64,000 nucleotides of DNA, taken from the NCBI GenBank assembly GCA_021463195.1, contig JAJTXZ010000014.1, positions 1 through 64,000 on the forward strand, written 5' to 3'. Made by a program: the position numbers and the translations under genes. The notes under the pieces were generated by a model that saw only the letters and a list, made by a program, of their open reading frames with translations, searched no databases and had not been told where the DNA came from. Every line of letters starts with the position of its first letter. Positions within the stretch are counted from its first letter, which is position 1. Positions 31,431 to 51,849 of this stretch are shown piece by piece. Source of the stretch: Anaerolineae bacterium (GTDB lineage Bacteria; Chloroflexota; Anaerolineae; UBA4142; SHND01).

Positions 31431-34115
31431 TTACAATAGACCCAGCGCGCGGGCGCGCGCGACGGCTTCGGTGCGGCTCTTGACTTGGAGTTTGTCAAAG
31501 ATAATACGATTGTGTCCTTTGACCGTACTTAACGCGAGAAAAAGCCGTTCGCAAATTTCTTGATTCGAATATCCTTGCGCAAGCAGTCGCAGAATTTCCA
31601 ATTCGCGCTCGCTCAATGGCTCAAGCATTTCCGAATTTCGATTTTCGATTTTCGATTGTGGTTGTTTTGGAAACGCGGTCAAAAGTTTTTCCGCATAGGC
31701 GCGGTGCGCATGGTCTTGATTGCGCGAACGAAAATCTGAAATCAACAAGCGCATCGCCTCGCCTTCGTCCACAAAGAGACGAATGAAACCGCCCGGGCCT
31801 GCCAATGCCAACGCGTCGCCCAACAGCGCGATGCTCGAGTCGCGTTCTTGATTTAGAGCGAGCGCGACGATTTGCAAAACCATCACCTTGAGCCGTTCGT
31901 CCGCCCAATTCTTGGCGGTGACAAATTCGCGCAATGGTTCCAGCACAGCTAGCGCGGCGTTCGCATCCCCTTTGGCAAGGAGAACGCGCGCTTGGCTCAT
32001 AGGCAAATTGTACGTCTGCGCCAGCTGCGCGGCTGCCGCGACATCGCCTTGCGCGAGCAAAATCGGCACGCGCCCCGCCGCAAGCTCTGGCATCCGCAGC
32101 GCAAAGTTTTTCGCGCGCGCGTCTTGTTCCGACCGCGTCAAAATAGCGGACGCGCCCGCGACATCGCCTTGCGCCAGTTTCAAGCGCGCGAGAAACATTT
32201 CAGACAGCAAGTAACGGTCAATGACGCGGTCATATTGGCGCGCGAGTTCGAGACTCTTGGCGCCGTGGAATTCCGCCGCCTCCAAATCGTTCCATTCGTA
32301 CTGAATGCGCGCGAGACCCAAGTGCGCGTCGGAAGCGAATGAGAGCGCGGGTTCTCCGGCAAGCGCCAGCGCGCGCTCGTACGTTTCGACTGCCGCGCCA
32401 AGCTCGTTTTCGACTTCTTGCAGGGTGCCGGTTGTGGTTGTCGCCAAGAGCAGCGAAAAATTTCTGCCCGACGCTTTCGCCAGCGCTAACGCATGGTTCA
32501 CCGCGTCGCGGGCGGCAGCGCGCTCGCCCTGCAAGAAATGCGCGACGCTCCGCGTCCAGTACGCTGACGTGCGGTCCGACAAATTGTTCTCATCCAGATA
32601 TTCCAATGCGCGCTGCGATTGCGCCAGAATCGTGGGCAAGTCGTAACGCGTCAGCGCCAAGGTCGCGCGCGCTGTAGCGATTCGTCCGATGAGATTGCGC
32701 GTTTTATCTGTCAGCGGCGCGTCTTGCAGTCCAACTTGAGCAGCGTCAATCTTTTCTTGGACGCCGGAGGTGATTCCAAGAATCAACGACAATGCGGCAG
32801 AGTACCACCATAACGCGGGTCGCGCATCCAGCGCTGGTTTGGGCAAAGAATTGAGCCAAGCCAAAAGGACGTTCAAGGTACCGGGAAAGTGAAAGAGAAT
32901 TCGTCCACTCTCTAACAAGCGTTCAGCGCGGTCAATGTCATTCGCAGCCGTCGCGTGATGAAACGCTTCGATGAGCATGTTATTCTTTTCGTGCCATTCG
33001 CTCGCGCGTTGATGCAATTCCGCAAGATTTGTTTCGGTTGGCGCGTCGGAAAATCGCTGATACAAGCGTTGGCGCAACAACTCGACAAAGAGATGATGAT
33101 AGCGATACCAGTGCCGTTCGTTATCCAACGGAAAGAGAAAAAGATTGGCGTGTTCGAGGTGCGCCAGAGTTTCTTGACCCGTCCCGTCGCGAACATTCAA
33201 TACCGCGTCGCACAAGGGACCGCAGAGGCGTTCGAGGATGGAGGTGCGCAACAAAAAATTTTGAATAGCTTGTGGCTGCTGCCGCAAAACTTGTTCCATC
33301 AAATAGTCCAACACGAAACGATGACTGCCCGTAAAGGATTGAATGAAATTCTCGGTATCGCTTTGTCCGCGCATAGAGAGCGCCGCGAGCTGCAAGCCGA
33401 CAACCCAACCTTCGGTGCGCGTTTCCAATTGCTCAATCTCTTGCGCGGATAGATTTAGCCCCATGACGCGGTTCAGAAATTCGGATGCTTCGGAAAACGT
33501 AAAGCGCAAGTCGGCGGCGCGCAGTTCCGTCAATTCGTCGCGCGCGCGTAATTGAGACAGAGGCAGTTGCGGGTCTTGACGCGTGGCAATAATCAGATGC
33601 ATTTGCGGCGGCAGATGCTCGACCAAAAAAGCGAGCGCCGCGTCAATCTCTGGCGCGTCAATCAAATGATAGTCGTCCAACACCAAAATAAAATCGTCGG
33701 GGATGGCGGCGATTTCATTGAGCAAGACGGTCAGAACCGCTTCAGGGGGCGGCGGCTGCGGCGATTGAAGCGCGACCAATATTCCGCTGCCAAGCTGCGG
33801 AGCAATCGTTTGCAACGCCGCGACGAGATACGCCAAAAAGCGCGGCGGAGAACTATCGCCTTCGTCCAGCGAGAGCCAGGCAACATTGGAAGGATGAATG
33901 GTTCGCGCTTGCTTGTTCTTTATCTCCTCGCCTTTATAGTTTTGATGCACCCATTGGCTGACCAAGGTCGTTTTGCCAAAACCAGCGGGGGCTGAAACCA
34001 ACGTCAATTTTCGATCCAGTGTCTCGTCGAGGCGCGCGCGCAAACGCGGGCGCACGACAACCTGCGCGCGCGGCGGAGGGATGTAGAGTTTGGTTGCCAA
34101 AAGCGGCGCGGACAT
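31431..34115 (-). CDS. MalT-like LuxR-family ATP-dependent transcriptional regulator
   Basis: 894 aa. An N-terminal STAND-type ATPase has Walker A in LTLVSAPAGFGKTTLVSQWV and Walker B in FILVLDDYHLIDAPEIDAAL, with a downstream TRQDPQLPLSQLRARDELTE. A long TPR-like helical array fills about 350-800. The C-terminal LuxR helix-turn-helix is LSERELEILRLLAQGYSNQE followed by STVKGHNRIIFDKLQVKSRT. The family senses small ligands and activates nearby genes. The segment before the HTH contains PQSKIENRNSE, encoded by a GATTTTCGATTTTC simple repeat (plus strand 31627-31657). Confidence 0.9.
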   Translation of the reverse strand: MSAPLLATKLYIPPPRAQVVVRPRLRARLDETLDRKLTLVSAPAGFGKTTLVSQWVHQNYKGEEIKNKQARTIHPSNVAWLSLDEGDSSPPRFLAYLVAALQTIAPQLGSGILVALQSPQPPPPEAVLTVLLNEIAAIPDDFILVLDDYHLIDAPEIDAALAFLVEHLPPQMHLIIATRQDPQLPLSQLRARDELTELRAADLRFTFSEASEFLNRVMGLNLSAQEIEQLETRTEGWVVGLQLAALSMRGQSDTENFIQSFTGSHRFVLDYLMEQVLRQQPQAIQNFLLRTSILERLCGPLCDAVLNVRDGTGQETLAHLEHANLFLFPLDNERHWYRYHHLFVELLRQRLYQRFSDAPTETNLAELHQRASEWHEKNNMLIEAFHHATAANDIDRAERLLESGRILFHFPGTLNVLLAWLNSLPKPALDARPALWWYSAALSLILGITSGVQEKIDAAQVGLQDAPLTDKTRNLIGRIATARATLALTRYDLPTILAQSQRALEYLDENNLSDRTSAYWTRSVAHFLQGERAAARDAVNHALALAKASGRNFSLLLATTTTGTLQEVENELGAAVETYERALALAGEPALSFASDAHLGLARIQYEWNDLEAAEFHGAKSLELARQYDRVIDRYLLSEMFLARLKLAQGDVAGASAILTRSEQDARAKNFALRMPELAAGRVPILLAQGDVAAAAQLAQTYNLPMSQARVLLAKGDANAALAVLEPLREFVTAKNWADERLKVMVLQIVALALNQERDSSIALLGDALALAGPGGFIRLFVDEGEAMRLLISDFRSRNQDHAHRAYAEKLLTAFPKQPQSKIENRNSEMLEPLSERELEILRLLAQGYSNQEICERLFLALSTVKGHNRIIFDKLQVKSRTEAVARARALGLL

Positions 34116-34396: not shown

Positions 34397-34413
34397 GTTG
34401 CCGCAGCGGCAAC
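34397..34413. promoter_or_regulatory. Operator candidate GTTGC-N7-GCAAC (site 1)
   Basis: GTTGCCGC-A-GCGGCAAC, a near-perfect palindrome 44 bases upstream of the small HTH gene. Site 2 with the same outer half-sites and the same 7-base spacing lies upstream of the WYL gene (34698-34714). Confidence 0.55.
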
Positions 34414-34457: not shown

Positions 34458-34661
34458 ATGTTTGGCGACAAGCAAGCCAAGCGCGAACGCTTGGCAAAAT
34501 TGGTTGATTTAGTTCAGCAGCGCCCCGGCATTTCGCAGGCGGAATTGGCGCGGAAATTGAATGTGAATCGTTCGACGATTTTCAAAGATTTGGTCACGCT
34601 CTCGGAGCTAGGAGTTCGGCTATCGCAGGACGACAATGGCGGGTTGTATATTCTGGATTAA
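34458..34661 (+). CDS. Small stand-alone HTH protein, first gene of the type III block
   Basis: 67 aa, almost all of it a winged-helix DNA-binding domain: KRERLAKLVDLVQQRPGISQ, AELARKLNVNRSTIFKDLVT, LSELGVRLSQDDNGGLYILD. It resembles the N-terminal HTH of DeoR/WYL regulators but has no ligand domain. The following gene (90 bases on) is a full WYL regulator; the two may act together. The same pair of genes occurs again ahead of the type I block (47638 and 47925). Confidence 0.75.
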   Translation: MFGDKQAKRERLAKLVDLVQQRPGISQAELARKLNVNRSTIFKDLVTLSELGVRLSQDDNGGLYILD

Positions 34662-34697
34662 TTTCGGGCGAAATATAGTCCATATCTCCTACCGAGT

Positions 34698-34714
34698 GTT
34701 GCCATTTTTGCAAC
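34698..34714. promoter_or_regulatory. Operator candidate GTTGC-N7-GCAAC (site 2)
   Basis: GTTGC-CATTTTT-GCAAC lies 37 bases upstream of the WYL gene start, between the small HTH stop and the WYL ribosome site (AAGGAG). Half-sites and spacing equal those of site 1. Confidence 0.6.
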
Positions 34715-34750: not shown

Positions 34751-35746
34751 ATGTCACGAGCGGATGAAGAACGGATTCGGCAAGAGTTATTGCATTCGCG
34801 CGAATTTATCGCGCAAGCGGAATTGGCGCGGCGGTGTGAACTGAAACATCGTTCCACGATCAAACGGATGCTGGAACGATTGCACTCGGGCGGCTTTGCG
34901 CTGGAATGGGATGAACGGAAATGGGTGCGTTTGGACCGCAGCAAATATTTGCTGGATTTAAAGTTGAACGAAGACGAGGCGCTCGCGGTTTTTATTGCGT
35001 GCCGCTTGTTGGCGCGTCACAGCGACCGCCCGAATCCGCACGCGGTCAATGCGCTCGCGAAATTGGGTACGGCGATGCGCGGCGGCGCGCGTGTGATTGG
35101 GGAACATGTGCTTGCAACGTCGGAACAGCTCAAGCGCAAACAGAGTCAAGCGGCGCGCGAATATGTGCAAAATCTGGAAACCCTCACGCGCGCGTGGGCA
35201 GACCGCGCGAGCGTGTATTTGTACACGCGCAAGGAACCGCACCGCGCGCGCAAGTTTGACCCGTACATGATCGAACCATCGCTGTACACGAACTATGTCA
35301 TCGGCTATGACCACACGCGCCAAGATTTCCGCACTTTTAAGATTCAATGGCTCAAGCGAGTCTCGTCAACGGCGGAGCATTTCGAGGTTCGCGGGAATTT
35401 TGATGTTCAGCAATATTTGGGCAATGCGTGGGGCATCAACTGGGGCAAGGGAGAATTGGAAACGGTGCGCTTGCGTTTTACGGGGAACGCGGCGGAACGG
35501 GTGCAAGATAATGTGTGGCACGATTCGCAAAAATTGAAACAACTGGATAACGGCGCGTGGGAAATGACGGTGCAAGTGGGCGACACGCTAGAGATGATTC
35601 CATTCGTCCGTCAATGGGGTCACGAATGTGAGGTGCGCGAACCCGAACACTTGCGCAAGACGATTGGGGAACATGCGCGCAAGATGGCGGAGTTGTACGA
35701 TAATGTAAAGCAAAAAGATTTTTTGGACGCGGATAAACGCGGATGA
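34751..35746 (+). CDS. WYL-domain transcriptional regulator of the type III block
   Basis: 331 aa. N-terminal HTH (about 1-60: EERIRQELLHSREFIAQAEL, HRSTIKRMLERLHSGGFALE), a helical middle with LNEDEALAVFIACRLLARHS, a WYL beta-barrel (about 150-240: RASVYLYTRKEPHRARKFDP, YMIEPSLYTNYVIGYDHTRQ, FRTFKIQWLKRVSSTA), and the WCX C-terminal extension (VRLRFTGNAAERV). WYL proteins sense ligands, often nucleic acids or nucleotides, and control many phage-defence islands. An AAGGAG ribosome site is present. Confidence 0.9.
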   Translation: MSRADEERIRQELLHSREFIAQAELARRCELKHRSTIKRMLERLHSGGFALEWDERKWVRLDRSKYLLDLKLNEDEALAVFIACRLLARHSDRPNPHAVNALAKLGTAMRGGARVIGEHVLATSEQLKRKQSQAAREYVQNLETLTRAWADRASVYLYTRKEPHRARKFDPYMIEPSLYTNYVIGYDHTRQDFRTFKIQWLKRVSSTAEHFEVRGNFDVQQYLGNAWGINWGKGELETVRLRFTGNAAERVQDNVWHDSQKLKQLDNGAWEMTVQVGDTLEMIPFVRQWGHECEVREPEHLRKTIGEHARKMAELYDNVKQKDFLDADKRG

Positions 35747-35763
35747 ACGCGGAAAGAACAAAT
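35728..35763 (+). repeat. CGCGGATAAA/CGCGGATGAA short tandem tract
   Basis: GACGCGGATAAACGCGGATG and a third partial unit cross the stop codon of the WYL gene. Related CGGAT(G)AA tracts occur at 46098-46130 and 47462-47560, only in this island within the window. Confidence 0.6.
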
Positions 35764-36642
35764 ATGAAACCGTCAAGACGCAACGCGCAAACATTGATTG
35801 CGACATTGGGCAGTGAGCCGCAAGTGGTGACGCTGGCGCTGGACCAGTTGTTGGCGCGCGGTTACGCGATTGACCAAGTGGTGGTCGTCTATACCGCCGA
35901 TGACGCGGTATTGAAAGCGATGGCGCGCGTGGCGAGCGAATTTGACGGCGCGGTGTATCCGCGCGTGACGCTGCGAACGACGCCCGTGATGGATGCGCGC
36001 GGCGCGGTGCAAGATTTTCGCGTGGATGCCGATATGCGCGCGCTGCAACAAACTTTGTATCGCGAGGTGCGCGAGGCGAAACGCAATCAGCGCGCCGTGC
36101 ATCTGTGCGTTTCGGGCGGACGCAAAGTGATGGGCGTGATGGCGATGGTGGTCGCGCAGTTGCTGTTCGATGCGAATGATTGCGTATGGCATTTGATGAG
36201 CGAGGGCTGGCAGCCGGGCAGTGAAAAGCGAATGCACGCACGCGCGCAAGACCAAATCTGGCTCGTGCCGGTTCCCGTTTTGCGCTGGACGGATTCGGCG
36301 GGGCTTTTGGCAGTATTCGGCGAACTGGACGACCCGGCAGATGCGCTGCGACGGCGCGAGGAATTGGCGCGGGCGGATGATTTGCGGCGGACGCGCGAGT
36401 TTGTCGAGCGCGTGTTGACGCGCGCGGAACGCGCGGTGGTTGAATTGACCTGTTACGGTTTGGACAATGCGGCGATTGCGCGACGCTTGCACAAAAGCGA
36501 GGCGACGGTGGCGAATCAACTAACGAGCGCGTACAGCAAGTTGAATGAATTTTTAGGTTTCCCCGAACGCGCGCCGGACCGCGCGGTGTTGATTGCGACA
36601 GTGGGTTTGTATTTCGCGCTGCTGGGAAAGGGGGGGGAATGA
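35764..36642 (+). CDS. CARF-like (Cas_NE0113-type) domain fused to a LuxR-type HTH
   Basis: 292 aa from the ATG at 35764, which has a GGAAAG ribosome site; an upstream ATG (35743) overlaps the WYL stop. Residues ~8-175 form a Rossmann-type sensor: TLIATLGSEPQVVTLALDQL at the N-terminus, VHLCVSGGRKVMGVMAMVVA (SGGRK at 117-121), and DANDCVWHLMSEGWQPG, which match the Cas_NE0113 group of CARF proteins. Residues ~218-262 are a LuxR-type HTH (LTRAERAVVELTCYGLDNAA to SEATVANQLTSAYSKLNEF). No nuclease domain is seen. Its place next to Cas10 suggests a transcription factor, or ring nuclease with regulation, that reads cyclic oligoadenylate. Confidence 0.7.
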   Translation: MKPSRRNAQTLIATLGSEPQVVTLALDQLLARGYAIDQVVVVYTADDAVLKAMARVASEFDGAVYPRVTLRTTPVMDARGAVQDFRVDADMRALQQTLYREVREAKRNQRAVHLCVSGGRKVMGVMAMVVAQLLFDANDCVWHLMSEGWQPGSEKRMHARAQDQIWLVPVPVLRWTDSAGLLAVFGELDDPADALRRREELARADDLRRTREFVERVLTRAERAVVELTCYGLDNAAIARRLHKSEATVANQLTSAYSKLNEFLGFPERAPDRAVLIATVGLYFALLGKGGE

Positions 36643-36806: not shown

Positions 36807-38024
36807 ATGATGAGCGAAGCAAACGAAAAACTCAAGCCGTACCAAACAGACAATCTGATTTTGCTCGTCGGCACGAATCCGCTGCCGAACTATGTGGCGG
36901 CGCGGCTACTGCTCAAGCCCAATGGCAAGATTCATTTGGTTTGTTCGAACGACACGCAATCTATCGCAAGGCAATTAGAACAACAATTTGCGCGTGATGA
37001 GTTGCAATCTGAGCGGCGTCCCGTGATAGACGAGAGCAAGCCGAGCGGTATTTACAATGCCATTTATCAGATTGCGGCGAATATGCAAGGAAGCATAGGG
37101 TTGCACTACACGGGCGGCACGAAGGCAATGTCAGTTCACGCTCACCGCGCAGTCAAAGATGCGTGTGCGAATGCTGTGTGCTCGTATCTTGACGCGCACG
37201 AGTTAAAGATGGTAATTGATGATGGAATGGGAGATGGGCGAGATGATGAAATACCTGTCAACGAAGCTGTGACGCCCAAGCTAAAAGAGGTGATTGAATT
37301 ACACGAGATAACATTGAAAAAGGATCCAGAGCAGAAACCGATTCTGCTTGAAGCAGCGAAGGCAATTAAAGCAACAATTGAATCGGAACAGGAATTGCCT
37401 TGGCGCAAGTGGCTACAGACTCGACGCGCAGAAACGGAAGGTTTCTCCAAGAAAAAAGGCGCCGAGATAAAAAAGACCGCTGCGCCCACGCTAACGGACT
37501 TTCCGATTATACAGCAGGTATTCGCGCGATTGGGCGCATCGCCCGAAGCAACACTTGAAGAATGGGCAAAAGTTGCCGAGTTCAAGACAAGCGATGATGC
37601 AATTCCCAAATTTGCCAAATGGCTCGAAGGTGAGTGGCTTGACAGTTTTGTTCTCGACTGTTTGAGGCAGATTGCAGTTGAATGTCGCTTGCACGATTAC
37701 GGGATGGATTTTGCGTCGAACGCGGGCAAATTTCAGTTCGATGTCGCGGCGATGCGCGGCTACCAGTTGTTTGCCATTTCTTGCACGACATCCCAAGACA
37801 AGGATTTGTGCAAGAGCAAGCTCTTTGAAGCATACGTGCGCGCCAAGCAGATGGGCGGCGATGAAGCGCGGGTGGCGTTAGTGAGTTATCATCCAGACCC
37901 GCAAACTTTACTGACCAATTTTTTGAATGAATGGAAATACTCGAAAGCATCCGTCCGCGTGTTTGGCAAAGATGCTTTAACAGATTTGCCCATGCATCTG
38001 CGCGACTGGATTCAATCCAACTAA
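36807..38024 (+). CDS. CARF-domain nuclease-like effector (Card1/Can-type, DUF1887-related), first copy
   Basis: 405 aa. N-terminal CARF (about 15-150) with LILLVGTNPLPNYVAARLLL, IHLVCSNDTQSIARQLEQQF and LHYTGGTKAMSVHAHRAV (ligand-binding GGTK at 103-106). A helical middle follows. The C-terminal part (about 275-400) has WLDSFVLDCLRQIAVECRLH, KFQFDVAAMRGYQLFAISCT and CKSKLFEAYVRAKQMGGDEA, the outline of a PD-(D/E)xK domain in which the Asp (FDVA) is kept but the ExK position reads SCT. It probably acts when cyclic oligoadenylate made by Cas10 binds. Cas10 starts 13 bases downstream. Confidence 0.8.
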   Translation: MMSEANEKLKPYQTDNLILLVGTNPLPNYVAARLLLKPNGKIHLVCSNDTQSIARQLEQQFARDELQSERRPVIDESKPSGIYNAIYQIAANMQGSIGLHYTGGTKAMSVHAHRAVKDACANAVCSYLDAHELKMVIDDGMGDGRDDEIPVNEAVTPKLKEVIELHEITLKKDPEQKPILLEAAKAIKATIESEQELPWRKWLQTRRAETEGFSKKKGAEIKKTAAPTLTDFPIIQQVFARLGASPEATLEEWAKVAEFKTSDDAIPKFAKWLEGEWLDSFVLDCLRQIAVECRLHDYGMDFASNAGKFQFDVAAMRGYQLFAISCTTSQDKDLCKSKLFEAYVRAKQMGGDEARVALVSYHPDPQTLLTNFLNEWKYSKASVRVFGKDALTDLPMHLRDWIQSN

Positions 38025-38037: not shown

Positions 38038-39597
38038 ATGACCTATACACTCACCATTCTGGATGTGAGCGGCGTCCAAAAGTATTTGTTTGACAGCAAC
38101 CGCTTGCCGCACAATCTCGGCGCGTCGTATTTGGTGGAACAGGCAATCGAGGAGTGGGTTGAGATTGCGGTGAAGGATTGGAAAGCGGGAAACATTGAAA
38201 GCGGCGCAAATTACGAAATTGTGTACAGCGGCGGCGGAAACGCGGTGTTATTGTTTGATTCGCATGAGCGCGCCATCGAATTTACGCGGCACTACACCAA
38301 ACATCTGCTTGCCAATGCGCCGGGTTTGCGGGTGGTTATCCAGCGCACTCCGTTCGAGTGGGATCAATCGCTCGCCGATGTGTACACACATGCCTTGTGT
38401 ACTCTTGCCGAAAAGAAAGCAGAGCAATCGCCTGTGATGCCCATACTCGGTTTAAGCGTTACGGCGGCGTGCCAGTACACGGGACTGCCCGCCATCAAGC
38501 TAGATTCCGACGACGATAACAAACGCATCTCCGCTGAGGTTGCCGCCAAAGTTCACGCGCACCAAGACGCTCGCTCACGATTGAAAAAAGACTTTGTGGA
38601 CGAGCTGGGTGAGTATGAATTCGCTTACGATTTCAACTTGTTCGGTGAACGGGACAAAGCGAGTTATAGCGCAGTCGTCCACGCGGACGGAAACGGCATG
38701 GGCAAGCGAAAAGAAGCGATTTGTCAAGCCCCTGAAAATCAAAAAGACAATCGCAAGTTCATTCAAACGCTGCACCAGTTTTCGGAGGAGGTGAAACAGG
38801 CAGGCACCCGAGCGATGCAAAAAACGTTTGAGCGCTTGATGAATTGGATTGGCGCAGATGAGCAACGCTTTAAAGATTTCACGGCTTGGGATGAGGAGAA
38901 AAAAGTTCGGCGCGTCAAATTTGTGCCACTCGTGTTTGGCGGCGACGATGTGACGTTCGTTTGCGATGGGCGCTTGGGGTTGTCGCTTGCCGCAATTTTT
39001 TTGCAAGAGTTCAACAAACAGCGGTTGGCTGTAGATGGCAAGCCCTTGTACGCCTGCGCAGGCGCAGCAATCGTCAAGAACCGCTTTCCGTTCGCGCGCG
39101 CGTACGATATAGCGGAAGCGTTGTGCCAAAGCGCCAAGCGCGCGGTCAAGGAATGGCAAGTCAACGAGGACGAGGATGCGCTCGCGCTCGATTGGCATTT
39201 TGCGGTCAGCGGCGCGGTGTTGTCTCTGGGTGAGGTTCGGAAACGTGAATACACGGTGAAAGATGGCAAGCTCTATGTGCGCCCTTACTTGATCAATGCT
39301 CCCCGCGAGCCGCTGAAAAGTTGGCGCGCGTTTCAAAATATCGTCGGGGAGTTCAAGGCAGGCGATGATTGGAAGAGCCGTCGCAACAAGGTCAAAGAGT
39401 TACGCGAGACCTTGCGACAAGGTAAAAGCGCCACTGACCAATTCCGATTAACGTATCTGACTGATCCCAAAGTGGAATTTCCGCGCATTGATGGAATCTT
39501 GGACTGCTACGAAAACGGATGGCATGGCTCAACCTGCGCTTATTTTGACGCTATCGAAGCAATGGATCTGTTCGTGGACATGAAGGAGAACGCATAA
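38038..39597 (+). CDS. cas10: Cas10, type III-D-like, without HD domain
   Basis: 519 aa, short for Cas10. It starts directly with the first palm-like part (MTYTLTILDVSGVQKYLFDS; YSGGGNAVLLF), so the N-terminal HD DNase is absent. The second palm keeps the cyclase site: VVHADGNGMGK (216-222) and PLVFGGDDVTFVC with GGDD at 301-304. It should therefore make cyclic oligoadenylate on target RNA binding but not cut DNA through HD. Absence of HD together with Csx10 and Csx19 neighbours is the mark of subtype III-D. The stop overlaps the start of the next gene. Confidence 0.92.
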   Translation: MTYTLTILDVSGVQKYLFDSNRLPHNLGASYLVEQAIEEWVEIAVKDWKAGNIESGANYEIVYSGGGNAVLLFDSHERAIEFTRHYTKHLLANAPGLRVVIQRTPFEWDQSLADVYTHALCTLAEKKAEQSPVMPILGLSVTAACQYTGLPAIKLDSDDDNKRISAEVAAKVHAHQDARSRLKKDFVDELGEYEFAYDFNLFGERDKASYSAVVHADGNGMGKRKEAICQAPENQKDNRKFIQTLHQFSEEVKQAGTRAMQKTFERLMNWIGADEQRFKDFTAWDEEKKVRRVKFVPLVFGGDDVTFVCDGRLGLSLAAIFLQEFNKQRLAVDGKPLYACAGAAIVKNRFPFARAYDIAEALCQSAKRAVKEWQVNEDEDALALDWHFAVSGAVLSLGEVRKREYTVKDGKLYVRPYLINAPREPLKSWRAFQNIVGEFKAGDDWKSRRNKVKELRETLRQGKSATDQFRLTYLTDPKVEFPRIDGILDCYENGWHGSTCAYFDAIEAMDLFVDMKENA

Positions 39598-40259
39598 TGG
39601 CAACCTACATTCTCAAACTCACATTGCAGAGTGAAGCGACGTTCGGGCGCGGCGATGGGGTCGCAGGTTTGGTGGACACGGAAATCGAACATGACGAACG
39701 CGGATTGCCTTATTTGCACGGGCGCGGCGTCAAGGGCTTGTTCACCGCGCAGTGTGCGGACCTTCTCGGCGCGTTGGAGCAATCTTTCGCTCATTCCAAA
39801 TTCAAGAACGCGGCGACGCGTTTGTTTGGCGACGGCGGCAGCGATTTAGAAGCGAATGGCGCGGTGTCATTCAGTCACGCGCGCTTGCCTCAAGGTTTGC
39901 GCGAGGCGGTCAATGCGGTCAAGCCAGAGCAGTTGAGCCGCATGGATGTTGTGGAAGCGTTGACGACGATTCGCCGTCAAACCAGCATTGACCACAACTC
40001 GGGCGCGGCAAAAGAAGACACGCTGCGCGCGATTCGCGTGTTGATGCGCGGCTTGGAATTTCACGCGCGAATTACGGTTGACCGCAACCTTGATGCTATC
40101 GAGCAAGCATTGTTGGGCGCGTGCGTCAAGGCGATTCGACGCGTTGGTTCGCAACGCGCGCGGGGCTTGGGACGCGTGAGAACAGAGTTGGTGGACGAGA
40201 ATGGTAATTCTCTCACGGAACCATGGATGACTTTATTCGCGCAGGAGGTGCAGGCATGA
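39597..40259 (+). CDS. Csm3-like Cas7-group RAMP
   Basis: 220 aa backbone subunit of the type III-D complex. Opens MATYILKLTLQSEATFGRGD, GVAGLVDTEIEHDERGLPYL, HGRGVKGLF, which is the Csm3/Cas7 pattern with the target-RNA-cleaving Asp expected at D27. A glycine-rich end (RVGSQRARGLGRVRTEL) follows. Its start overlaps the cas10 stop by one base and its stop overlaps the csx10 start, showing translational coupling. Confidence 0.88.
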   Translation: MATYILKLTLQSEATFGRGDGVAGLVDTEIEHDERGLPYLHGRGVKGLFTAQCADLLGALEQSFAHSKFKNAATRLFGDGGSDLEANGAVSFSHARLPQGLREAVNAVKPEQLSRMDVVEALTTIRRQTSIDHNSGAAKEDTLRAIRVLMRGLEFHARITVDRNLDAIEQALLGACVKAIRRVGSQRARGLGRVRTELVDENGNSLTEPWMTLFAQEVQA

Positions 40260-41809
40260 ACGCGCTCACGTTCAAGATTGAATTGTTGGAGCCGCTATTG
40301 GTCGCACAGTTGGGCAGCGGCGACGAGAACAGCGCGCAGAGTTTGGATTACATCCCCGGCAGTGTGCTGCGGAACGCGCTTGCGGCGCGCTACATTACCG
40401 AGCGCAATTTGGAAGCGGATGCCGCGAATGACCCCACTTGCCGCGCGCTGTTCTTTGACGACAAAGTGCGCGTGCTAAACAGCTATCGCGCGGACCACTT
40501 GGGCGAGCGCAGTTTGCCAACGCCGCTTTCGTGGATTGCGGAAAAAGAGGCGTTGGGCAATTGGAGACCCGATGACAAGCCGGGAGACCGCTTGACTTTC
40601 TACAATGCCGCAGTGGATGAGACCGTGGTACAGGAAATGCGCGATATCAAGACGCTTGAAAAAGCGGCAAGATTCTGCCGTTTGGGTGAAGACGAGGTCG
40701 AGTTGGTTGGTTCGGCGCGCCAAGTCAATGTTCATATTCAGCGCCAACACAAACGTGAATTGAAAACAAAAGGCGAATCTCAAGTATTCGTCTATGACGC
40801 GTTGGCGGCGGGAGAAATTTTTTGCGGCGCAATTTTAGCGCAAGACGATGCCGCGCTTGAAACCTTCAGGCAAATGTTGATGAACGCGCCCGAATTCAAT
40901 ATCGGTGGTTCGCGGAGCGCGGGGTATGGGCGGATTAGAATTTCCGATGTTACGCACAATACAGATTGGCGCGAAACACACGAAAATGAAAATGGCAAAG
41001 GTGAAATCGTTATCGTTTTGTTGAGTGATGCGATTGTGCGCGATAAGTGGGGACAATTTTCGGATGACATTGGCGCATTGCTTGGCGCGTCGGCGTTGCG
41101 CTGTTATCGCAAGCTCAAACCGGCGGGCGGCTTTAATCGCAAATGGGGCTTGCCTTTGCCGCAAGCGCACGCGATTCAGGCGGGTAGTGTGTTTGTCTAT
41201 GCCGCAGGCGCGGTGGAACAAGCGCGCCTTGAATCCTTTGTCGCAGAGGGCATTGGCGAACATAGGCAAGATGGTTTCGGGCGCATTGCGGTCAATTGGA
41301 ATACGCGACGCGAATTGAGCGCGCAGCAAATTGCACTTGCGCCCAAGCTGACGACAGTTTCGTTGGCGAATGATGCAGTTTCGCAGCGACTTGCCCAACG
41401 CATCGTGGAACATCAGTTACGCAAGGAGCTTGACCAGGCATTGCAGCGCGAGGTTCTCGTTTTGAGAATCAAGGGCGGCTCCAAGTCTGCGCTCGCGCGT
41501 GTGCGCCTTGCCGCGCGGCGGTCGGTTTTCAAAGGAGATTTGAGCCCCGTGGAGGATTTGCTCAAGCATATAAAAAAGACGGGGATTGACAATCTTAACA
41601 AGACACGCATCGGGTCAGGCACGTTATTTGACTGGCTGAAGCAGAGAACAGAAAAACGCGATGCGGAACAGCAACTCAACCTGTCGCTCGATAAACTACC
41701 ACAAGTAGGCGGCGTTCGCGCCGAACTGACGGACGCGTTGCGTAACGAATATACCGCGCGCTGGATTGAAGCCGTCGTGAAACGCGCGCAAAAGGAGGCG
41801 CAATCATGA
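40256..41809 (+). CDS. csx10: Csx10, type III-D RAMP (Cas5-group)
   Basis: 517 aa from the ATG at 40256 (MNALTFKIELLEPLLVAQLG), with a GGAGG ribosome site. Features of Csx10: SLDYIPGSVLRNALAARYI near the N-terminus, NVHIQRQHKRELKTKGESQV, FVYDALAAGEIFCGAI and the G-rich FNIGGSRSAGYGRIRI. It is thought to bind the crRNA 5' handle like Csm4/Cmr3. It forms part of an unbroken chain of overlapping genes (ATGA at both junctions). Confidence 0.88.
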   Translation: MNALTFKIELLEPLLVAQLGSGDENSAQSLDYIPGSVLRNALAARYITERNLEADAANDPTCRALFFDDKVRVLNSYRADHLGERSLPTPLSWIAEKEALGNWRPDDKPGDRLTFYNAAVDETVVQEMRDIKTLEKAARFCRLGEDEVELVGSARQVNVHIQRQHKRELKTKGESQVFVYDALAAGEIFCGAILAQDDAALETFRQMLMNAPEFNIGGSRSAGYGRIRISDVTHNTDWRETHENENGKGEIVIVLLSDAIVRDKWGQFSDDIGALLGASALRCYRKLKPAGGFNRKWGLPLPQAHAIQAGSVFVYAAGAVEQARLESFVAEGIGEHRQDGFGRIAVNWNTRRELSAQQIALAPKLTTVSLANDAVSQRLAQRIVEHQLRKELDQALQREVLVLRIKGGSKSALARVRLAARRSVFKGDLSPVEDLLKHIKKTGIDNLNKTRIGSGTLFDWLKQRTEKRDAEQQLNLSLDKLPQVGGVRAELTDALRNEYTARWIEAVVKRAQKEAQS

Positions 41810-43173
41810 GCAAATCACGCTGGGATACGCATCGAAACATTCAGGAACGGTGGATCATCAAAGGGGCGCTGGTATTGGAATCGCCCGCGCATTTTGGCAA
41901 TGGCGACGTGAGCGCGTGGACGGATATGCCACTGGCGCGCGACAAGGAAACGGACAAGCCGCTGCTCACAGGCGCATCCATCGCGGGCGCGCTGCGAAAT
42001 TATTTGCGCGCAAGCAGCGAGTCTCAAGCGAACGACCTTTTCGGAGAAATACGCGGCAATACGGCGATTGAAAGCGCGCTCATCGTGAACGACGCGCTGG
42101 CATCAAACGCCGACGATTTGGAAATGCGCGATGGCGTTGCAATCAAGCCTAAAACGCGAACGGCGGACGACAAAAAGAAATTTGACATTGAGCTGCTCCC
42201 TGCTGGCGCACAATTCGATTTGTGTTTCGAGTTGAATGTTTCACAAAGCGAACGCGATGTGTTAGTGCGCGCGTTGGCGATTGCGCTGTACGGTTTGGAG
42301 AGCGGCGCGATTGGTTTGGGCAAACGCAAAACGCGCGGCTTTGGACACTGCCGCGTCGTAGGATGGCGCGTGCGGCGTTATCGCGTGACGGAACCACGCG
42401 AGTTGATTGCGTGGTTGAACCGAGACGGCGCAAATGAAAAAGGTGACAACATTGCGCCATTGTTGGGAGTGGAAGTATCGAATATTGAAAAGGAAAAATT
42501 CACGCTCGACGCGACGTTTGAACTCGATGGTTCGCTCTTGATACGCGATTATGCCGCGAGCAACACATCCGCCGATGCCGCGCATCTCCATTCCAAACGC
42601 AACGGCAAACTTGAGCCAATCGTGAGCGGCACGAGTTTGGCGGGCGCGTTACGCGCGCGGGCGTTGCGAATTGCAAATACGATGGCGAACGATGCAAGCC
42701 GCGCGGACAAGTTGGTGGATGAAATGTTTGGACCGCGCAAAGGAGAATTGCGCATAAGCCGTGTGCGGGTGCGCGAAAGCGTGATTCAGAACGGGATGAG
42801 CGAGATGGTGCAGAACCGCGTCAAGATTGACCGCTTTACGGGCGGCGCGTCGAACACGGCGCTGTTTAGCGAACAACCGCTATTTGGCTTGCCCGAAACG
42901 CGCATTCATATCGCGCTCGAATTGGTCAAGCCCAAAAAGCAAGAAGTTGGTTTGCTGCTCCTCTTGCTCAAAGATTTGTGGACGGGCGATTTGGCGCTCG
43001 GAGGCGAAAGCAGTGTGGGACGCGGGCGGCTGCGCGGTTTGGCTGCGAATTTGCAACTCGGCGGGGACGAGTGGGAACTCTTAGAACAAGACGGCAAATT
43101 AGCCATCATCGGAAATCAAGAGGTTCTGGAAGAATGCGTCCAAGAATTTGTAAAGGAGATGCAAAATGCGTGA
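41806..43173 (+). CDS. Double Cas7 (Csm3-like) fusion, Cas7-2x type
   Basis: 455 aa carrying two RAMP units. Unit 1 (about 10-200): KGALVLESPAHFGNGDVSAW, TDMPLARDKETDKPLLTGAS, IAGALRNYL and GAIGLGKRKTRGFGHCRVVG. Unit 2 (about 225-440): FTLDATFELDGSLLIRDYAA, GKLEPIVSGTSLAGALRARA and LALGGESSVGRGRLRGLAAN. Each unit has an Asp in the loop where Csm3 cleaves RNA (WTDMP; IRDYA). Tandem Cas7 fusions are known from the III-D2 and III-E lines. It overlaps csx10 and the csx19-like gene. Confidence 0.85.
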   Translation: MSKSRWDTHRNIQERWIIKGALVLESPAHFGNGDVSAWTDMPLARDKETDKPLLTGASIAGALRNYLRASSESQANDLFGEIRGNTAIESALIVNDALASNADDLEMRDGVAIKPKTRTADDKKKFDIELLPAGAQFDLCFELNVSQSERDVLVRALAIALYGLESGAIGLGKRKTRGFGHCRVVGWRVRRYRVTEPRELIAWLNRDGANEKGDNIAPLLGVEVSNIEKEKFTLDATFELDGSLLIRDYAASNTSADAAHLHSKRNGKLEPIVSGTSLAGALRARALRIANTMANDASRADKLVDEMFGPRKGELRISRVRVRESVIQNGMSEMVQNRVKIDRFTGGASNTALFSEQPLFGLPETRIHIALELVKPKKQEVGLLLLLLKDLWTGDLALGGESSVGRGRLRGLAANLQLGGDEWELLEQDGKLAIIGNQEVLEECVQEFVKEMQNA

Positions 43174-43720
43174 CATCAAACCTACGCAATGCCAAATTTC
43201 CGCAATTCCCGATTTGCCAGGCGAAAGCAATTTTGCAGGATGGCTGAATCAGCAAGCGGCGCAATATGCGTTGACTTTTGCGCTCGCGTTTGCGGATGAC
43301 GGCGTCATTTGGGGACGCTTTGACGGCGCGTGGAAATGGTCGGACGAGAGTTTCGCTGTCTCGCCGCCGCTGCGCTGGAACACCTTGCAACAGATTCGCT
43401 TGTTTGGCGCGAACGCCGAAGTGTTTCTGTGGCGCGCAAATGGCGCATGGGCAGGACGCGTGATTGCAGATGGCGCGGGCGAGCCGCGCGAATACTTTGA
43501 TGAGGCACAATTGCTGTGGGGCGCGAAAGATGGTGATGCACAAAACGGTTTCTTGCTGATGCGCGACGGCGGACAAGGCCTGCGCCACACGCCGCCGGTC
43601 AATATTGCGAATGAGGGCAAATTGTGCACGCGCAATTATCTGGACTATGACCAAGATGGGAGTATGAAAATTATTGCCAGCCGCTTGGTGGACGCCAAGT
43701 CGGAGGAGATGACGAAATGA
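43166..43720 (+). CDS. csx19: Csx19-like protein
   Basis: 184 aa. Conserved-looking parts are LTFALAFADDGVIWGRFDGA, WNTLQQIRLFGANAEVFLWR and ANGAWAGRVIADG, near the middle of the protein, which match the Csx19 family of subtype III-D loci. Its biochemical role is not known; it may be a small subunit of the complex. An AAAGGAG ribosome site lies before the ATG, and both ends overlap neighbours. Confidence 0.82.
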   Translation: MRDIKPTQCQISAIPDLPGESNFAGWLNQQAAQYALTFALAFADDGVIWGRFDGAWKWSDESFAVSPPLRWNTLQQIRLFGANAEVFLWRANGAWAGRVIADGAGEPREYFDEAQLLWGAKDGDAQNGFLLMRDGGQGLRHTPPVNIANEGKLCTRNYLDYDQDGSMKIIASRLVDAKSEEMTK

Positions 43721-46080
43721 GTCAAAAACACACGAGTCTAAATTTTCCACGTGAAAAGAATGGCGAACAATTCTATGCGCGCGCGCCGTACAACTTTGTG
43801 CCGCTGCCTGAAAAGGTGGTGACGGTGGGAGAGCCGCCCGACCACGACCATTATGAAGGCAACACGGGCTATCTCGAATGTGAGTTGGAAACGAAATCGC
43901 CGCTGTATGTGCGCGGGATGATGACGCAATCAAGTTTTGAAGAGCTCGGCGAAAAATCGTTTCACGAGTTGACGCCTAAACAGCAGCAAGAGCGCGCAAA
44001 ATTTTTCATCCTTCGTGCCAATGAGCCGGTGATTCCGGGGAGCAGTCTACGCGGGATGATTCGCGCGTTGGTGGAGATTGTGGGGTATGGGAAGGTGCAG
44101 CCGGTTACTGATAAACAGATGCTTTATCGAGCAGTTGGCGACCCGGCAAGCCTTGGACAATATTATCGCGCTCAAATGCTTGGAACCAGCAAGGTTCCAT
44201 CTCCCAACACACAGCTCGACTATCCATTGTCGCAATTGCGCGGCGGCTATTTACGCGTGCGCGATGGCAGCCGATCCATACAACCAGCGATGCAACATCA
44301 TGGTGAAAGCTTTATTCACGTTGAATATGCTGATGCAAGGGCAATCAACATACAACAAAACACGCAAACTGTGCATCAAGTACTGGTTACTCCGGCACCG
44401 CGAAGTCCGTCCAATCGCGGCAGAAGAAATCAGGGGAATTTGACTCTTGATCTTGCGATTGCTCCAAGTGGCGGTATTGCAGTTAGGCATCGCGGGCAAA
44501 CACCCAATCCTGGAATGGTCGAGGCAACCCTGGTCGTATCAGGACACATGGGCGGTCAACATCCAAAACATTGGCACTGCGCGATTTATGCGCCTGACCC
44601 CGCTGCGCCGTCAATTCGTATTTCCGACGAAAAATGGAAATCCTATGAAGAAGACCGAGACATGACACGCGGATTTCCAACAAGAAAATTGCAGCAGGAG
44701 GGCGACCCATTGTTTTATCTTGTGGATGCTAACGGGCAGCTGCAATTCTTTGGTCCGACGATGATGTTCCGCCTCCCCTATTTGAGAACTGCAAACGATT
44801 TTGTACCAGAGCAACTGCGGCGCGAATCTGACCTTGACCTCGCCGAAGCAATGTTCGGCTGCACCAAGCAAAAGGGCGAAGGGAAAGCGCGTGCGTATGC
44901 CAGCCGCGTGTTCGTGAGTGACGCGAAACTTGAGGCGGGGCAAGGTGATGTTTGGCTCATGCCCGATGAGGAGATTCTCACGCCCAGAATTTTGAGTTCG
45001 CCAAAACCGACGACGTTTCAACATTATCTCACGCAGGGCGATGACGCGGCGCGCGAAAAGAAGAATCTAAAGCACTATGCCAGCGACCTCAACAAGACGG
45101 AGATTCGCGGACACAAGTTGTATTGGCACAAGGGCGAAGTGTCGCGCCAAGATATCGAATTGGAACCGGACAAAGATAAGCAGCAACTCGCCAAGCAACT
45201 GACAGGCATCAAACCCGTCCGCGCGGGCGTCACGTTCAAATTTCGTGTGAACTTTGAGAATTTGAATGATGCGGAACTGGGCGCGCTGTTGTGGGTGTTG
45301 GGGTTGCCCGATGGGTATTGCCAAGCATTGGGGATGGGCAAGCCGCTTGGGATGGGCGCGGTGAAAATTACGCCGACGCTCTATTTGAGCAATCGCAACC
45401 AGCGTTATGCGCGCTTGTTCGAAAACGACAAGTGGGCAGACAGTGTTCAGCAAGAAATGGAGCGCGAACAATTCACGCGCGCGTTTGAAAATTTTGTGTT
45501 GGAGGGAATGGATGCGGCTGAACGCGCGGGCAAAGAGAAATTGGAGCAAATGCAAAGAATCCAAATGCTGCTCAAGATGTTGGAATTTCCGGGACCTGAC
45601 CGCGATTGGACATGTTATATGACGATTGAGCCGAATGAGTTCAAGGAGCGTCCGGTGTTGGCTGACCCGTTGCACATCGTGCCATCTTCTTTGACGCGCG
45701 GTGAATCAAAACCCGCGCCCAAACCCAAGCCAGCCGCGTCGCCACAGGGGCGCGCGGAAAAGATAGCGCCAGCGCCTGCGGAGAAAAGACAAGCCGCGCC
45801 GCCGCAGATGCCGCAATCCGCCGCGCCTGTGAGTCCGTACAAGGTTGGCGATACATTCAATGGCAAGGTGAACAACATTTGGGGTGATGGAACATTCATC
45901 ATTGAAACGCCCAAGCTGAAAATGCAACAAGGATATGCGCGCGTAGCCAAAGCAGACGCGGCAGGTAAGGGCTGGCAAATGGGCGATAACGCGAGCTGCG
46001 AGGTGGTAAGTATCTCGACAGACGCAAAAGGTAGAGTGGTTCTTGTCTGTAAGGCGCCCACCAAGAAACCCAAAAAGTGA
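43717..46080 (+). CDS. Large type III-D RAMP (TIGR03986-like) with C-terminal OB-fold
   Basis: 787 aa. RAMP features: YLECELETKSPLYVRGMMTQ and EPVIPGSSLRGMIRALVEIV at the N-terminus, a long insertion (about 150-330), LTGIKPVRAGVTFKFRVNFE and LGMGKPLGMGAVKITPTLYL further on. After a Pro/Ala/Lys linker (about 655-705), the last 75 residues (YKVGDTFNGKVNNIWGDGTF to GDNASCEVVSISTDAKGRVV) resemble an S1/cold-shock OB-fold that binds RNA. It probably is the Cas7-like subunit with insertion of III-D complexes; the OB tail may hold target or crRNA. Confidence 0.82.
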   Translation: MSQKHTSLNFPREKNGEQFYARAPYNFVPLPEKVVTVGEPPDHDHYEGNTGYLECELETKSPLYVRGMMTQSSFEELGEKSFHELTPKQQQERAKFFILRANEPVIPGSSLRGMIRALVEIVGYGKVQPVTDKQMLYRAVGDPASLGQYYRAQMLGTSKVPSPNTQLDYPLSQLRGGYLRVRDGSRSIQPAMQHHGESFIHVEYADARAINIQQNTQTVHQVLVTPAPRSPSNRGRRNQGNLTLDLAIAPSGGIAVRHRGQTPNPGMVEATLVVSGHMGGQHPKHWHCAIYAPDPAAPSIRISDEKWKSYEEDRDMTRGFPTRKLQQEGDPLFYLVDANGQLQFFGPTMMFRLPYLRTANDFVPEQLRRESDLDLAEAMFGCTKQKGEGKARAYASRVFVSDAKLEAGQGDVWLMPDEEILTPRILSSPKPTTFQHYLTQGDDAAREKKNLKHYASDLNKTEIRGHKLYWHKGEVSRQDIELEPDKDKQQLAKQLTGIKPVRAGVTFKFRVNFENLNDAELGALLWVLGLPDGYCQALGMGKPLGMGAVKITPTLYLSNRNQRYARLFENDKWADSVQQEMEREQFTRAFENFVLEGMDAAERAGKEKLEQMQRIQMLLKMLEFPGPDRDWTCYMTIEPNEFKERPVLADPLHIVPSSLTRGESKPAPKPKPAASPQGRAEKIAPAPAEKRQAAPPQMPQSAAPVSPYKVGDTFNGKVNNIWGDGTFIIETPKLKMQQGYARVAKADAAGKGWQMGDNASCEVVSISTDAKGRVVLVCKAPTKKPKK

Positions 46081-46196
46081 TTGGCGCACGGGCCGGGTTG
46101 TCAACGGATTTTAAAAACGGATGAACGGATGAGGCGCGCGCTGTTCGCGAATCCGCTGGCAATCCGCAAAATGATTTGTTCTGGAAAAGGAGTGCG

Positions 46197-47084
46197 ATGA
46201 CAACGTTAATTTCCTTGGTGGGCGATCAACCTGCGCCAAACGTTATCCCAGTGCGCCATTTTGCGCCAAAACAGGTTGCGCTTATTCATACAAAACTAAC
46301 GCAAAGACGCGCTGAATATATTGCCGATGTGCTTGGCAAAAGCGTCGTGCATCCTTTTTGCCAGACGGAAGCGTATCGTGTGGATTCTATCAAAGCGTCG
46401 TTGAGTGAATATATCGAACGGCATGGCTGGAATTCCGATGCACTGATTTTCAATCTCACGGGCGGCACCAAGACAATGGCGATTGCGGCGCTTGAATTGG
46501 CGCAGCAAATGGGGGCGGCGGCGTTTTATTATCAGACCGAAGAGAACCAGAGTCTGCTCCATGTCTATCATTTTGACGGAGCGCAGTTGATTTGCCAAGA
46601 GCCGATACCAATTAGGGCGACTCTGACGATAGATGAGTTCTTGCGTCTTTATATCGGACGGTACGAGAAGGGCGAGTTCAAAAATGATTTTGAACGAAAC
46701 GTCGCTGCGGCGCTCGAGCAGTTGGGCGCTGACTATGAATCTTGTCCGAATCTCAGACTAACCGGTGTCGGTCCGAATGTGGAAATAGATGGGGTCGTGC
46801 GTTTTCATAACACGATTGGTGTGATTGAGGTTTGTGTCCATGCGACTAAAAAGGACGGGATAGACCAGTTGGCAGGCGTAACTGACCAAAAGACATTGGG
46901 GACATACACAAAAAAGTTCCTCGTTTCAGTAGACGAGTTGCACGCAAACGACCAAGCGCTTGCTACAGCATATCGAATCATTCCCATCGTGCTGCCAAGT
47001 GGCCGCGGACAGACACTGGCGCAAGCGGATAAACAAAAATTGATTGAAACTTTGAGAGCCGAGATGGAGCCGAGAAAAGAATGA
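46197..47084 (+). CDS. CARF-domain nuclease-like effector, second copy (Card1/Can2-type, DUF1887)
   Basis: 295 aa from the ATG at 46197 (AAAAGGAG ribosome site). The CARF part covers 1-140 with LISLVGDQPAPNVIPVRHFA and LIFNLTGGTKTMAIAALELA (GGTK at 89-92). The nuclease part has FKNDFERNVAAALEQLGADY, VGPNVEIDGVVRFHNTIGVI and EVCVHATKKDGIDQLAGVTD: the Asp (D198) and Glu (E211) of PD-(D/E)xK are kept but the Lys two places on is Cys213; K218/K219 may substitute. It is likely a cyclic-oligoadenylate-activated nuclease. It is smaller than the copy at 36807. Confidence 0.83.
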   Translation: MTTLISLVGDQPAPNVIPVRHFAPKQVALIHTKLTQRRAEYIADVLGKSVVHPFCQTEAYRVDSIKASLSEYIERHGWNSDALIFNLTGGTKTMAIAALELAQQMGAAAFYYQTEENQSLLHVYHFDGAQLICQEPIPIRATLTIDEFLRLYIGRYEKGEFKNDFERNVAAALEQLGADYESCPNLRLTGVGPNVEIDGVVRFHNTIGVIEVCVHATKKDGIDQLAGVTDQKTLGTYTKKFLVSVDELHANDQALATAYRIIPIVLPSGRGQTLAQADKQKLIETLRAEMEPRKE

Positions 47085-47461
47085 TCCTCCTCAACTACTC
47101 CCACCCCCTCACCCCCGCGCAGCTCGCGCAAGTCGAGGCGTTGGCAGGGAAAAAAATCGAGCGCGTGGTCGAGGTTCACAGCCAGATTGACGCGCAGGCG
47201 CCGCTCACGCCGCAAGTGGTGGCGATGGCGGACAAGGCGGGGCTTGAACCAATCGAATGGCAGTCCGCGCCGCTCATCGTGAATCCGCCATCGTTGAATT
47301 TTGTCGCGACAGTGTTGTTGGCGGAATTGCATGGGCGCTGCGGTTATTTTCCGGCGATGCTGCGGATGCGCCCGGCGCCGAATAGTTTGCCGCCGCAGTT
47401 TGAAGCGGCAGAGATTATCAATTTGCAGGCGACGCGCGATGCGGCGCGCCTCGTGCGGTGA
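47081..47461 (+). CDS. csx15: Csx15-like CRISPR-associated protein (putative ring nuclease)
   Basis: 126 aa. The sequence MILLNYSHPLTPAQLAQVEA, PLTPQVVAMADKAGLEPIEW, SAPLIVNPPSLNFVATVLLA, ELHGRCGYFPAMLRMRP and EIINLQATRDAARLVR matches the Csx15 family, which is grouped with CARF-related proteins that may degrade cyclic oligoadenylate and switch off the response. It overlaps the CARF nuclease stop (ATGA), so effector and off-switch would be made together. Activity is inferred, not shown. Confidence 0.78.
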   Translation: MILLNYSHPLTPAQLAQVEALAGKKIERVVEVHSQIDAQAPLTPQVVAMADKAGLEPIEWQSAPLIVNPPSLNFVATVLLAELHGRCGYFPAMLRMRPAPNSLPPQFEAAEIINLQATRDAARLVR

Positions 47462-47560
47462 GGGAGCGCGGTCAACGGATCGGCGGTCAACGGATAGGGA
47501 AAACGGATGAACGGATGCGCGCGGTCAACGGATTTGAAACGGATAATCGAATGAACGCGC
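47462..47560 (+). repeat. GGTCAACGGAT / ACGGATGAACGGATG tandem tract
   Basis: Repeated imperfect units such as CGGTCAACGGAT (three copies) and ACGGATGAACGGATGCGCG fill the boundary between the type III and type I blocks. A related shorter tract is at 46098-46130. Confidence 0.75.
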
Positions 47561-47599
47561 GCGCATCTGGAACAATACTTTCCAACCGCCGGCTATTCT

Positions 47600-47626
47600 G
47601 TGAATGGAGATTTTTATTTCATTCAC
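47600..47626. promoter_or_regulatory. GTGAATG-N13-CATTCAC dyad next to the ribosome site
   Basis: The right arm ends one base before the GGAGG ribosome site of the small HTH gene at 47638. It parallels the stem at 34416-34450 in front of the first small HTH gene, though the bases differ. Confidence 0.5.
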
Positions 47627-47637
47627 GGAGGCAGCCG

Positions 47638-47847
47638 ATGGCACGCTTATTCTGGGGCGAAAAGAAATGCAAGCGCGGAGACGTGGTGCGCCTTTTGAAA
47701 CGTTTTGAGCAAGGATTGACAGAGAGCGAGGTCGCGGAAATTTTGGCGTGGGACCGCCGCACGGTCAATAATTATTTGCGCGAGCTCGAAGTGGAATTGC
47801 GCGTCTACAAGGAAGGACGGCTCTGGTTCGCCGATGAAGGCGTTTGA
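47638..47847 (+). CDS. Small stand-alone HTH protein, first gene of the type I block
   Basis: 69 aa from the ATG at 47638 (GGAGG ribosome site); the frame is open upstream only through the simple repeat. The HTH is KKCKRGDVVRLLKRFEQGLT, ESEVAEILAWDRRTVNNYLR, ELEVELRVYKEGRLWFADEG. It resembles the HTH of the WYL protein encoded next (RTLNNYLRALEDEGKVYKDS), so it may have split off from such a regulator. It has no ligand domain. Confidence 0.72.
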   Translation: MARLFWGEKKCKRGDVVRLLKRFEQGLTESEVAEILAWDRRTVNNYLRELEVELRVYKEGRLWFADEGV

Positions 47848-48968: not shown

Positions 48969-48970
48969 CC

Positions 48971-51379: not shown

Positions 51380-51474
51380 GTCTGTACTGGGAATCCACAT
51401 CGGATCGAGGCACAGACCAACAACTAGAGGAGCATATTACAGTTTCCACTTACGGAACGAGTTGATGCGAACCC

Positions 51475-51806: not shown

Positions 51807-51849
51807 GTTCTCTGTCAATCAAGAACTAATTTTCATCGAAAGGAGGGCT

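Follow-up and report, generated by a model that had tools for sequence, protein, structure and literature searches.

A CARF-LuxR protein of the Csx14/NE0113 family as a probable cyclic oligoadenylate-gated regulator of type III CRISPR operons

The DNA analysed here, which we call the window, is a stretch of 64,000 nucleotides from an Anaerolineae bacterium. It carries a type III-D CRISPR locus read on the plus strand. A 67-aa HTH_11 protein, recognised by its domain match, is encoded at 34458-34661 and a WYL regulator at 34751-35746 (WCX E=1e-16, WYL E=5e-8). The end of the WYL gene overlaps the start of the gene that concerns us (35743-36642), whose product joins a CARF domain to a LuxR-type helix-turn-helix (HTH) and belongs to the Csx14/NE0113 family. 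We call it CARF-LuxR. Behind it lie a Card1/Can2-like CARF-PD(D/E)xK effector (36807-38024; Card1_endonuc E=1e-7, PADLOC CARF4-PDDEXK E=3e-116), a Cas10 of subtype III-D (38038-39597), the type III-D effector genes for Cas7-like proteins, Csx10 and Csx19 (39597-46080), a second CARF-PD(D/E)xK effector (46176-47084; CARF_Card1 E=5e-15, PADLOC E=5e-77) and Csx15 (47081-47461; PADLOC Csx15 E=1.5e-38), which ends the operon. Both CARF nucleases are of the Card1/Can2 type. Cas10 has GGDD at residues 301-304, and an HD dipeptide was looked for in the same protein and not found. Because the GGDD motif is intact, this Cas10 is predicted to be cyclase-competent. An earlier note, made from the letters of the DNA alone, had called the locus type III-D, and the presence of Csx10, Csx19 and Cas10 bears this out.

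The first ATG of the CARF-LuxR reading frame is at 35743, in an ATGA that includes the WYL stop codon, and gives 299 aa. A start at 35764 gives 292 aa. Judging from the sequence, 35764 is the better candidate, since the ribosome-site-like GGAAAG stands in front of it and most relatives begin near the equivalent position. Our residue numbers follow the 299-aa frame; subtracting 7 gives the 292-aa numbers of the earlier note. The Rossmann-like CARF domain occupies residues 15-202 (35785-36348, plus strand), with the Pfam model Cas_NE0113 (PF09623) matching residues 25-202 at E=9.2e-45 (153 bits, cut-off 23). The LuxR/GerE-type HTH occupies residues 224-268 (36412-36546, plus strand), where GerE (PF00196) matches at E=4e-7 (30.0 bits, cut-off 23.5). 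The NCBIfam model for Csx14, TIGR03642, scores the protein at 97 bits against a cut-off of 90.35, and the PADLOC cluster PDLC01851 (CARF3--CARF) spans residues 15-292 at E=4e-109. Behind the CARF domain no HEPN, PD-(D/E)xK or other effector domain of Pfam matches, only HTH models of the GerE/sigma-70-r4 type. The two-domain make-up of the protein is confirmed, far beyond chance. The earlier note had read an N-terminal CARF domain of NE0113 type, an SGGRK motif at 117-121 (124-128 here), a LuxR-type HTH at about 218-262 (GerE lies at 217-261 in that numbering) and no nuclease domain, and each of these readings holds.

The note had also proposed a structural comparison of the two halves, and the comparison agrees with the domain matches. 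A family profile made from 20 relatives was searched against the sequences of solved structures. Its first half finds the Crn1 ring nucleases (E=3.5e-11) and its second half finds LuxR, NarL, FixJ, VpsT and GerE-type proteins (E about 1e-9). An AlphaFold model built from three sequences (mean pLDDT 75, about 90 in the HTH region) aligns to the Crn1 enzyme Sis0455 over 148 residues with Z 18.2 and rmsd 2.8, and to Sso2081 with Z 17.3, followed by Cad1 and other CARF domains. Aligned at full length to Csa3, the model gives a lower quality match (Z 12.5, rmsd 8.2), so the two proteins, as modelled, share the order of their domains and differ in how these are arranged.

The closeness to Crn1 makes it important to ask which of the functional residues of those enzymes are present. 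Binding of cA4 by Sso2081 requires Arg105, with a strong contribution from Asp75; Lys106 serves to stabilise the intermediate, and the scissile phosphate is positioned by Ser11 (PMC10018336). The same paper is our source for the roles of Ser11 and Thr10 in Crn1, and reports that Ser11Ala costs Sso2081 about 80% of its activity whereas Sis0455 does not depend critically on its motif-I serine (PMC10018336). Aligned to Sso2081, the CARF-LuxR protein has Asp91 (36013-36015) for Asp75, and in its motif II SGGRK (36112-36126) Arg127 and Lys128 for Arg105 and Lys106. Of the 84 members of the family alignment, 76 retain Arg127 and 76 retain Asp91. Since these equivalents of the Sso2081 residues are conserved, cA4 binding by the CARF domain is likely to have been kept. 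The catalytic residues look different. At motif I (35812-35817) Ser24-Glu25 takes the place of Thr10-Ser11, giving G-S-E where Crn1 has G-T-S and replacing the catalytic serine; the Ser11-equivalent position is Gln, Glu or Lys in 82/84 members. Motif II agrees with the G-R-K of Crn1 (G126-R127-K128) in the window's protein, and across the family 18 of the 84 members have Lys at the Lys106-equivalent position and the other 66 have Arg. The Crn1 equivalog model of NCBIfam, NF040581, scores the protein at 25.8 bits, far under its cut-off of 125.

The earlier note regarded this fusion as undescribed. That claim has to be given up, since the fusion is the usual architecture of a large family, and PADLOC PDLC01851 and PDLC01855 cover it end to end. 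Family matches occur in 56 of 400 genomes of the window's phylum and in 71 of 199 sampled genomes of its own class. In the phylum to which a clostridial relative belongs, about 20 of 398 genomes have a full-length match. Relatives are also found on Rhodothermus marinus plasmids, directly before csm1, where RefSeq names the product a CRISPR-associated ring nuclease. None were found on viral contigs or in phages. We collected 104 full-length members with their flanks, and residue counts and the tree come from a set of 84. GerE is recognised in 18 of 20 scanned members, the other two failing the model, and the HTH is kept among members down to about 25-35% identity, so on this conservation we regard it as being under selection. 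Of the 72 loci for which more than 5 kb of downstream sequence was available, 60 have cas10 no more than 7 kb behind the gene and in the same orientation. The note had suggested looking for the same fusion elsewhere and for its link to cas10, and these counts supply both. The family accompanies III-A as well as III-D systems. The note's idea that the protein may control the two WYL-headed operons nearby gains no backing from the family. No locus of the 84-member set besides the window has a WYL gene recognised by the window's WYL profile, and the WYL neighbourhood is thus not a family trait; among the loci tested it is peculiar to the window. The CARF-LuxR architecture is not unique, and the window's protein belongs to a widespread family whose role had already been predicted.

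We believe the circuit around the protein is the interesting part, not the protein itself. The tree of 84 members has two clades. Among the loci whose upstream DNA is long enough to judge, 61, all of one clade, have a divergent AAA-Csx3 gene adjoining the CARF-LuxR gene, which is a classic regulator arrangement. AAA-Csx3 consists of a P-loop ATPase at the N-terminus and a Csx3 domain at the C-terminus; the two proteins that were tested match PF09620 at E=9e-34 and 2e-21. These divergent, Crn3-like genes are found in most of the loci that we number L041-L073 and L105-L144. In the window's own genome a search for Csx3 gave no hit, and neither did its control. Csx15 is usually present in the other clade, the window included. 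In nearly all clostridial relatives it is the next gene after CARF-LuxR, ahead of cas10 (L174-L187, L189, L191 and L192), and PADLOC confirmed three further relatives of Csx15. Csx15 binds cyclic nucleotides, and for one type III-associated member experiments show slow ring-nuclease activity specific to cA4 (PMC13148439). Loci were counted as complete if they had at least 3 kb of upstream and 8 kb of downstream DNA; there are 41 of these, and 37 encode Csx3 or Csx15. Because of this, signal destruction would usually be assigned to a protein other than CARF-LuxR. Two ring nucleases occur together in only about 4% of ring-nuclease loci (PMC12409355). In published surveys of about 1000 type III loci no more than 18 contained Csx15, and Crn1 was often its companion (PMC12409355, PMC13148439); some of the companions counted as 'Crn1' may belong to the CARF-LuxR family.

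It is tempting to read more into the ring-nuclease genes by setting them against Lys128. There are 34 members with Lys and no Csx3, 61 with Arg and Csx3, 3 with Arg and no Csx3, and none with Lys and Csx3. On the tree, Csx3 needs one change and the K/R difference two. We rejected this exclusion as independent evidence that cleavage has been outsourced, because a single Csx3 change on the tree makes it about one event.

The pairing nevertheless gives a concrete, testable circuit. Our tentative proposal, which we hold to be nearly as probable as its negation, is a widespread bacterial module in which gene order ties a cA4-gated LuxR-type regulator to a ring nuclease of its own (divergent AAA-Csx3 in one clade, Csx15 in the other), making signal-dependent transcription of the type III operon and removal of the signal a single circuit; the regulator of the Csx3 clade, having lost the motif-II lysine, would be a pure sensor. 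A literature search of limited coverage found no description of such a pairing of regulator and ring nuclease.

If the protein binds DNA, its operators may be visible upstream of the gene. One candidate comes from the clostridial relatives. Among 20 clostridial loci, 10 have the inverted repeat TAGTA-N6-TACTA, at 9 or 10 of its 10 positions, upstream of the gene. From shuffled sequence 0.22 would be expected, and none of 101 coding controls matches; the shuffles keep no account of relatedness, and the independent lineages that have the repeat are few (about four). Its carriers are 61-89% identical, and the block stands out in a seven-locus alignment of otherwise poorly conserved DNA. We consider it a candidate self-regulatory operator of these relatives. 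In L176, L177, L180, L181, L183, L185, L191 and L192 it lies about 70-90 nt upstream (about 210 in L192), and in several loci GGTA(A/G)CCAGG follows it. A clear copy in the window was not upheld. The best site there agrees at only 8 of 10 positions (34676-34691, 59 nt before the WYL start); it is one of the two best matches in the 64 kb, the resemblance is weak and was noticed post hoc, and as a copy of the element it is suggestive at most.

A second candidate operator in the window, GTTGC-N7-GCAAC, occurs at 34397-34413, 44 nt before the HTH_11 start, and again at 34698-34714, 36 nt before the WYL start. The copies are 301 bp apart and only 4 such sites exist in the 4.7-Mb genome, for a pattern that was chosen after the sites had been seen. 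The loci of relatives show no pattern of GTTGC-N7-GCAAC sites, so it cannot be assigned to CARF-LuxR, and we rejected that assignment; WYL or HTH_11 would be equally good owners. In 52 divergent CARF-LuxR/AAA-Csx3 promoter regions no common dyad exceeds shuffled sequence, and no operator common to all of the window's wider clade was found. In one locus, L141, a perfect 24-bp palindrome, GTATGGCTCGAATTCGAGCCATAC, lies about 64 nt upstream of the CARF-LuxR gene.

The computations give us a protein with two domains, the cA4-binding residues and no nuclease, a Cas10 with GGDD, a place before cas10, a ring-nuclease gene and a clostridial repeat. We think CARF-LuxR is probably a transcription regulator of type III operons, of the Csx14/NE0113 family, gated by cyclic oligoadenylate, with cA4 the most likely ligand. 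Its ligand, dimerisation, DNA binding, sign of regulation and targets are what we infer in the following scheme. Having detected target RNA, Cas10 would make cyclic oligoadenylate, probably cA4, which a pair of CARF domains would bind as a dimer. The resulting change in the dimer would alter DNA binding by the two LuxR-type HTHs. The HTH pair would sit at type III promoters, those of its own operon and, in one clade, that of the divergent ring-nuclease gene as well. In this way CARF-LuxR would set how much of the effector module is made, leaving removal of the signal to separate ring nucleases, Csx15 in the window and AAA-Csx3 in other loci. The earlier note had left the choice between a transcription factor and a ring nuclease. 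We favour its first option, a regulator responsive to cyclic oligoadenylate; the second is less supported, because the Ser11 equivalent is Glu25 and most loci, the window with its Csx15 among them, encode a separate ring nuclease, though Lys128 is kept.

The window's clade retains Lys128, so the CARF domain could still cleave rings slowly, and the protein might do both things: as a gated regulator it would gradually degrade the ligand bound by its own CARF domain, making a self-timed transcriptional response, in the Lys128 clade only. It fits this idea that every member with a divergent Csx3 has lost the lysine and that members without Csx3 have it, apart from one small subclade. As explained above, the few changes on the tree mean that this correlation is not independent support. 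Most complete loci of the window's clade also have Csx15, a cA4-specific ring nuclease in one tested case, and motif I departs from that of Crn1. We think a dual role unlikely.

That CARF-LuxR is mainly a Crn1-type ring nuclease, with an HTH-like domain that only helps dimerisation or substrate binding, we consider quite unlikely. Crn1 enzymes are the closest solved structures, the window's clade retains motif II with its Lys128, a published grouping puts Csx14 together with Crn1 (PMC12409355), RefSeq annotates the R. marinus product as a ring nuclease, and Sis0455 gets by without a critical motif-I serine (PMC10018336). Against this, Glu25 in place of that serine, with Gln, Glu or Lys in nearly all relatives, is joined by Arg for the motif-II lysine in 66/84. 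Most complete loci would then have two ring nucleases, an arrangement found in only about 4% of ring-nuclease loci (PMC12409355), and the HTH keeps the full LuxR pattern. HTH-like domains of CARF proteins can be structural rather than DNA-binding, as in Csx1, where they separate CARF from HEPN and are not stand-alone regulators (PMC9704534), but a structural remnant in a protein acting as a sponge for cyclic oligoadenylate or as a binding partner of other CARF proteins is very improbable here, given recognition-helix positions conserved across phyla, a conserved promoter-side position and the inverted repeat upstream.

A regulator of this kind has several known counterparts. Csa3 is a cA4-binding transcription factor and the main tested case of a CARF protein acting directly as one, studied in archaea. 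CARF-LuxR is like it in having an N-terminal CARF domain, a C-terminal HTH, no enzyme domain and the same proposed mechanism. The note had held that Csa3 uses a different HTH, and rightly: Csa3 has a winged HTH and occurs mostly with type I-A, whereas CARF-LuxR has a LuxR/GerE HTH and occurs in type III operons. The Csa3 model TIGR01884 gives the protein 15.1 bits against a cut-off of 60.2, while the C-terminal half matches GerE and sigma-70 region 4. The CARF half is also closer to Crn1 than to Csa3. With Crn1 (Sso2081, Sis0455) it shares the CARF fold (Z 17-18), the GRK of motif II and the cA4-binding Arg and Asp positions; it differs in the Glu for the motif-I serine, the extra HTH and the other ring nucleases in most loci. 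NarL/FixJ/LuxR response regulators and one-component LuxR proteins have the same HTH family and likewise place it under an N-terminal signal domain, which is a receiver or acyl-homoserine-lactone domain in their case and CARF in this one. In bacteria the CalpL-CalpT-CalpS system likewise answers cA4 with a change in transcription (PMC11229360), but does so by proteolysis and sigma-factor release, with no CARF-HTH fusion.

The closest comparison is with Csx14/Cas_NE0113 itself (PF09623, TIGR03642; PDLC01851, PDLC01855), which our protein matches over its full length and above the TIGR03642 cut-off. Makarova et al. 2014 predicted that Csa3 and the NE0113 proteins, without effector domains, act directly as transcription regulators (PMC4012209). 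The family models name only the CARF part, and the sources we read do not state the LuxR identity of the C-terminal half; a literature search of limited coverage found no paper naming the HTH of NE0113 proteins LuxR-type. One recent survey set transcription factors aside (PMC11229360) and another excluded ring-nuclease candidates over 250 aa (PMC12409355), so this family would escape both. If our reading is true, type III CRISPR alarms also re-programme transcription through a common bacterial family. Some 'ring nuclease' annotations in these loci would then be regulators, and both the counts and the interpretation of type III loci would change.

The surroundings of the operon contain further features. 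Upstream, on the minus strand, a MalT-like ATPase with TPR and LuxR HTH (31431-34115) adjoins the HTH_11 and WYL genes. Directly after Csx15 a 129-aa HTH protein (47458-47847) has an HTH that weakly matches the HTH part of PDLC01851 (E=5e-4), and a 32-nt direct repeat, 88% alike at 46100-46131 and 47486-47517, flanks the second CARF nuclease and Csx15. A type I-A set follows (Cas3, Cas8a, Cas7, Cas5a, Cas6 and Cas1; 47925-57712) with a second WYL gene, at 47925, at its head. Rfam matches a DUF3800-IX RNA at 10022-10096 (54.7 bits against a gathering threshold of 36.8). At the other end, from 58881 to 64000, a CRISPR array in which a repeat containing GTTGCAGTTCGTTCGTTCCGATAGAGGAA occurs at least 70 times reaches the end of the window.
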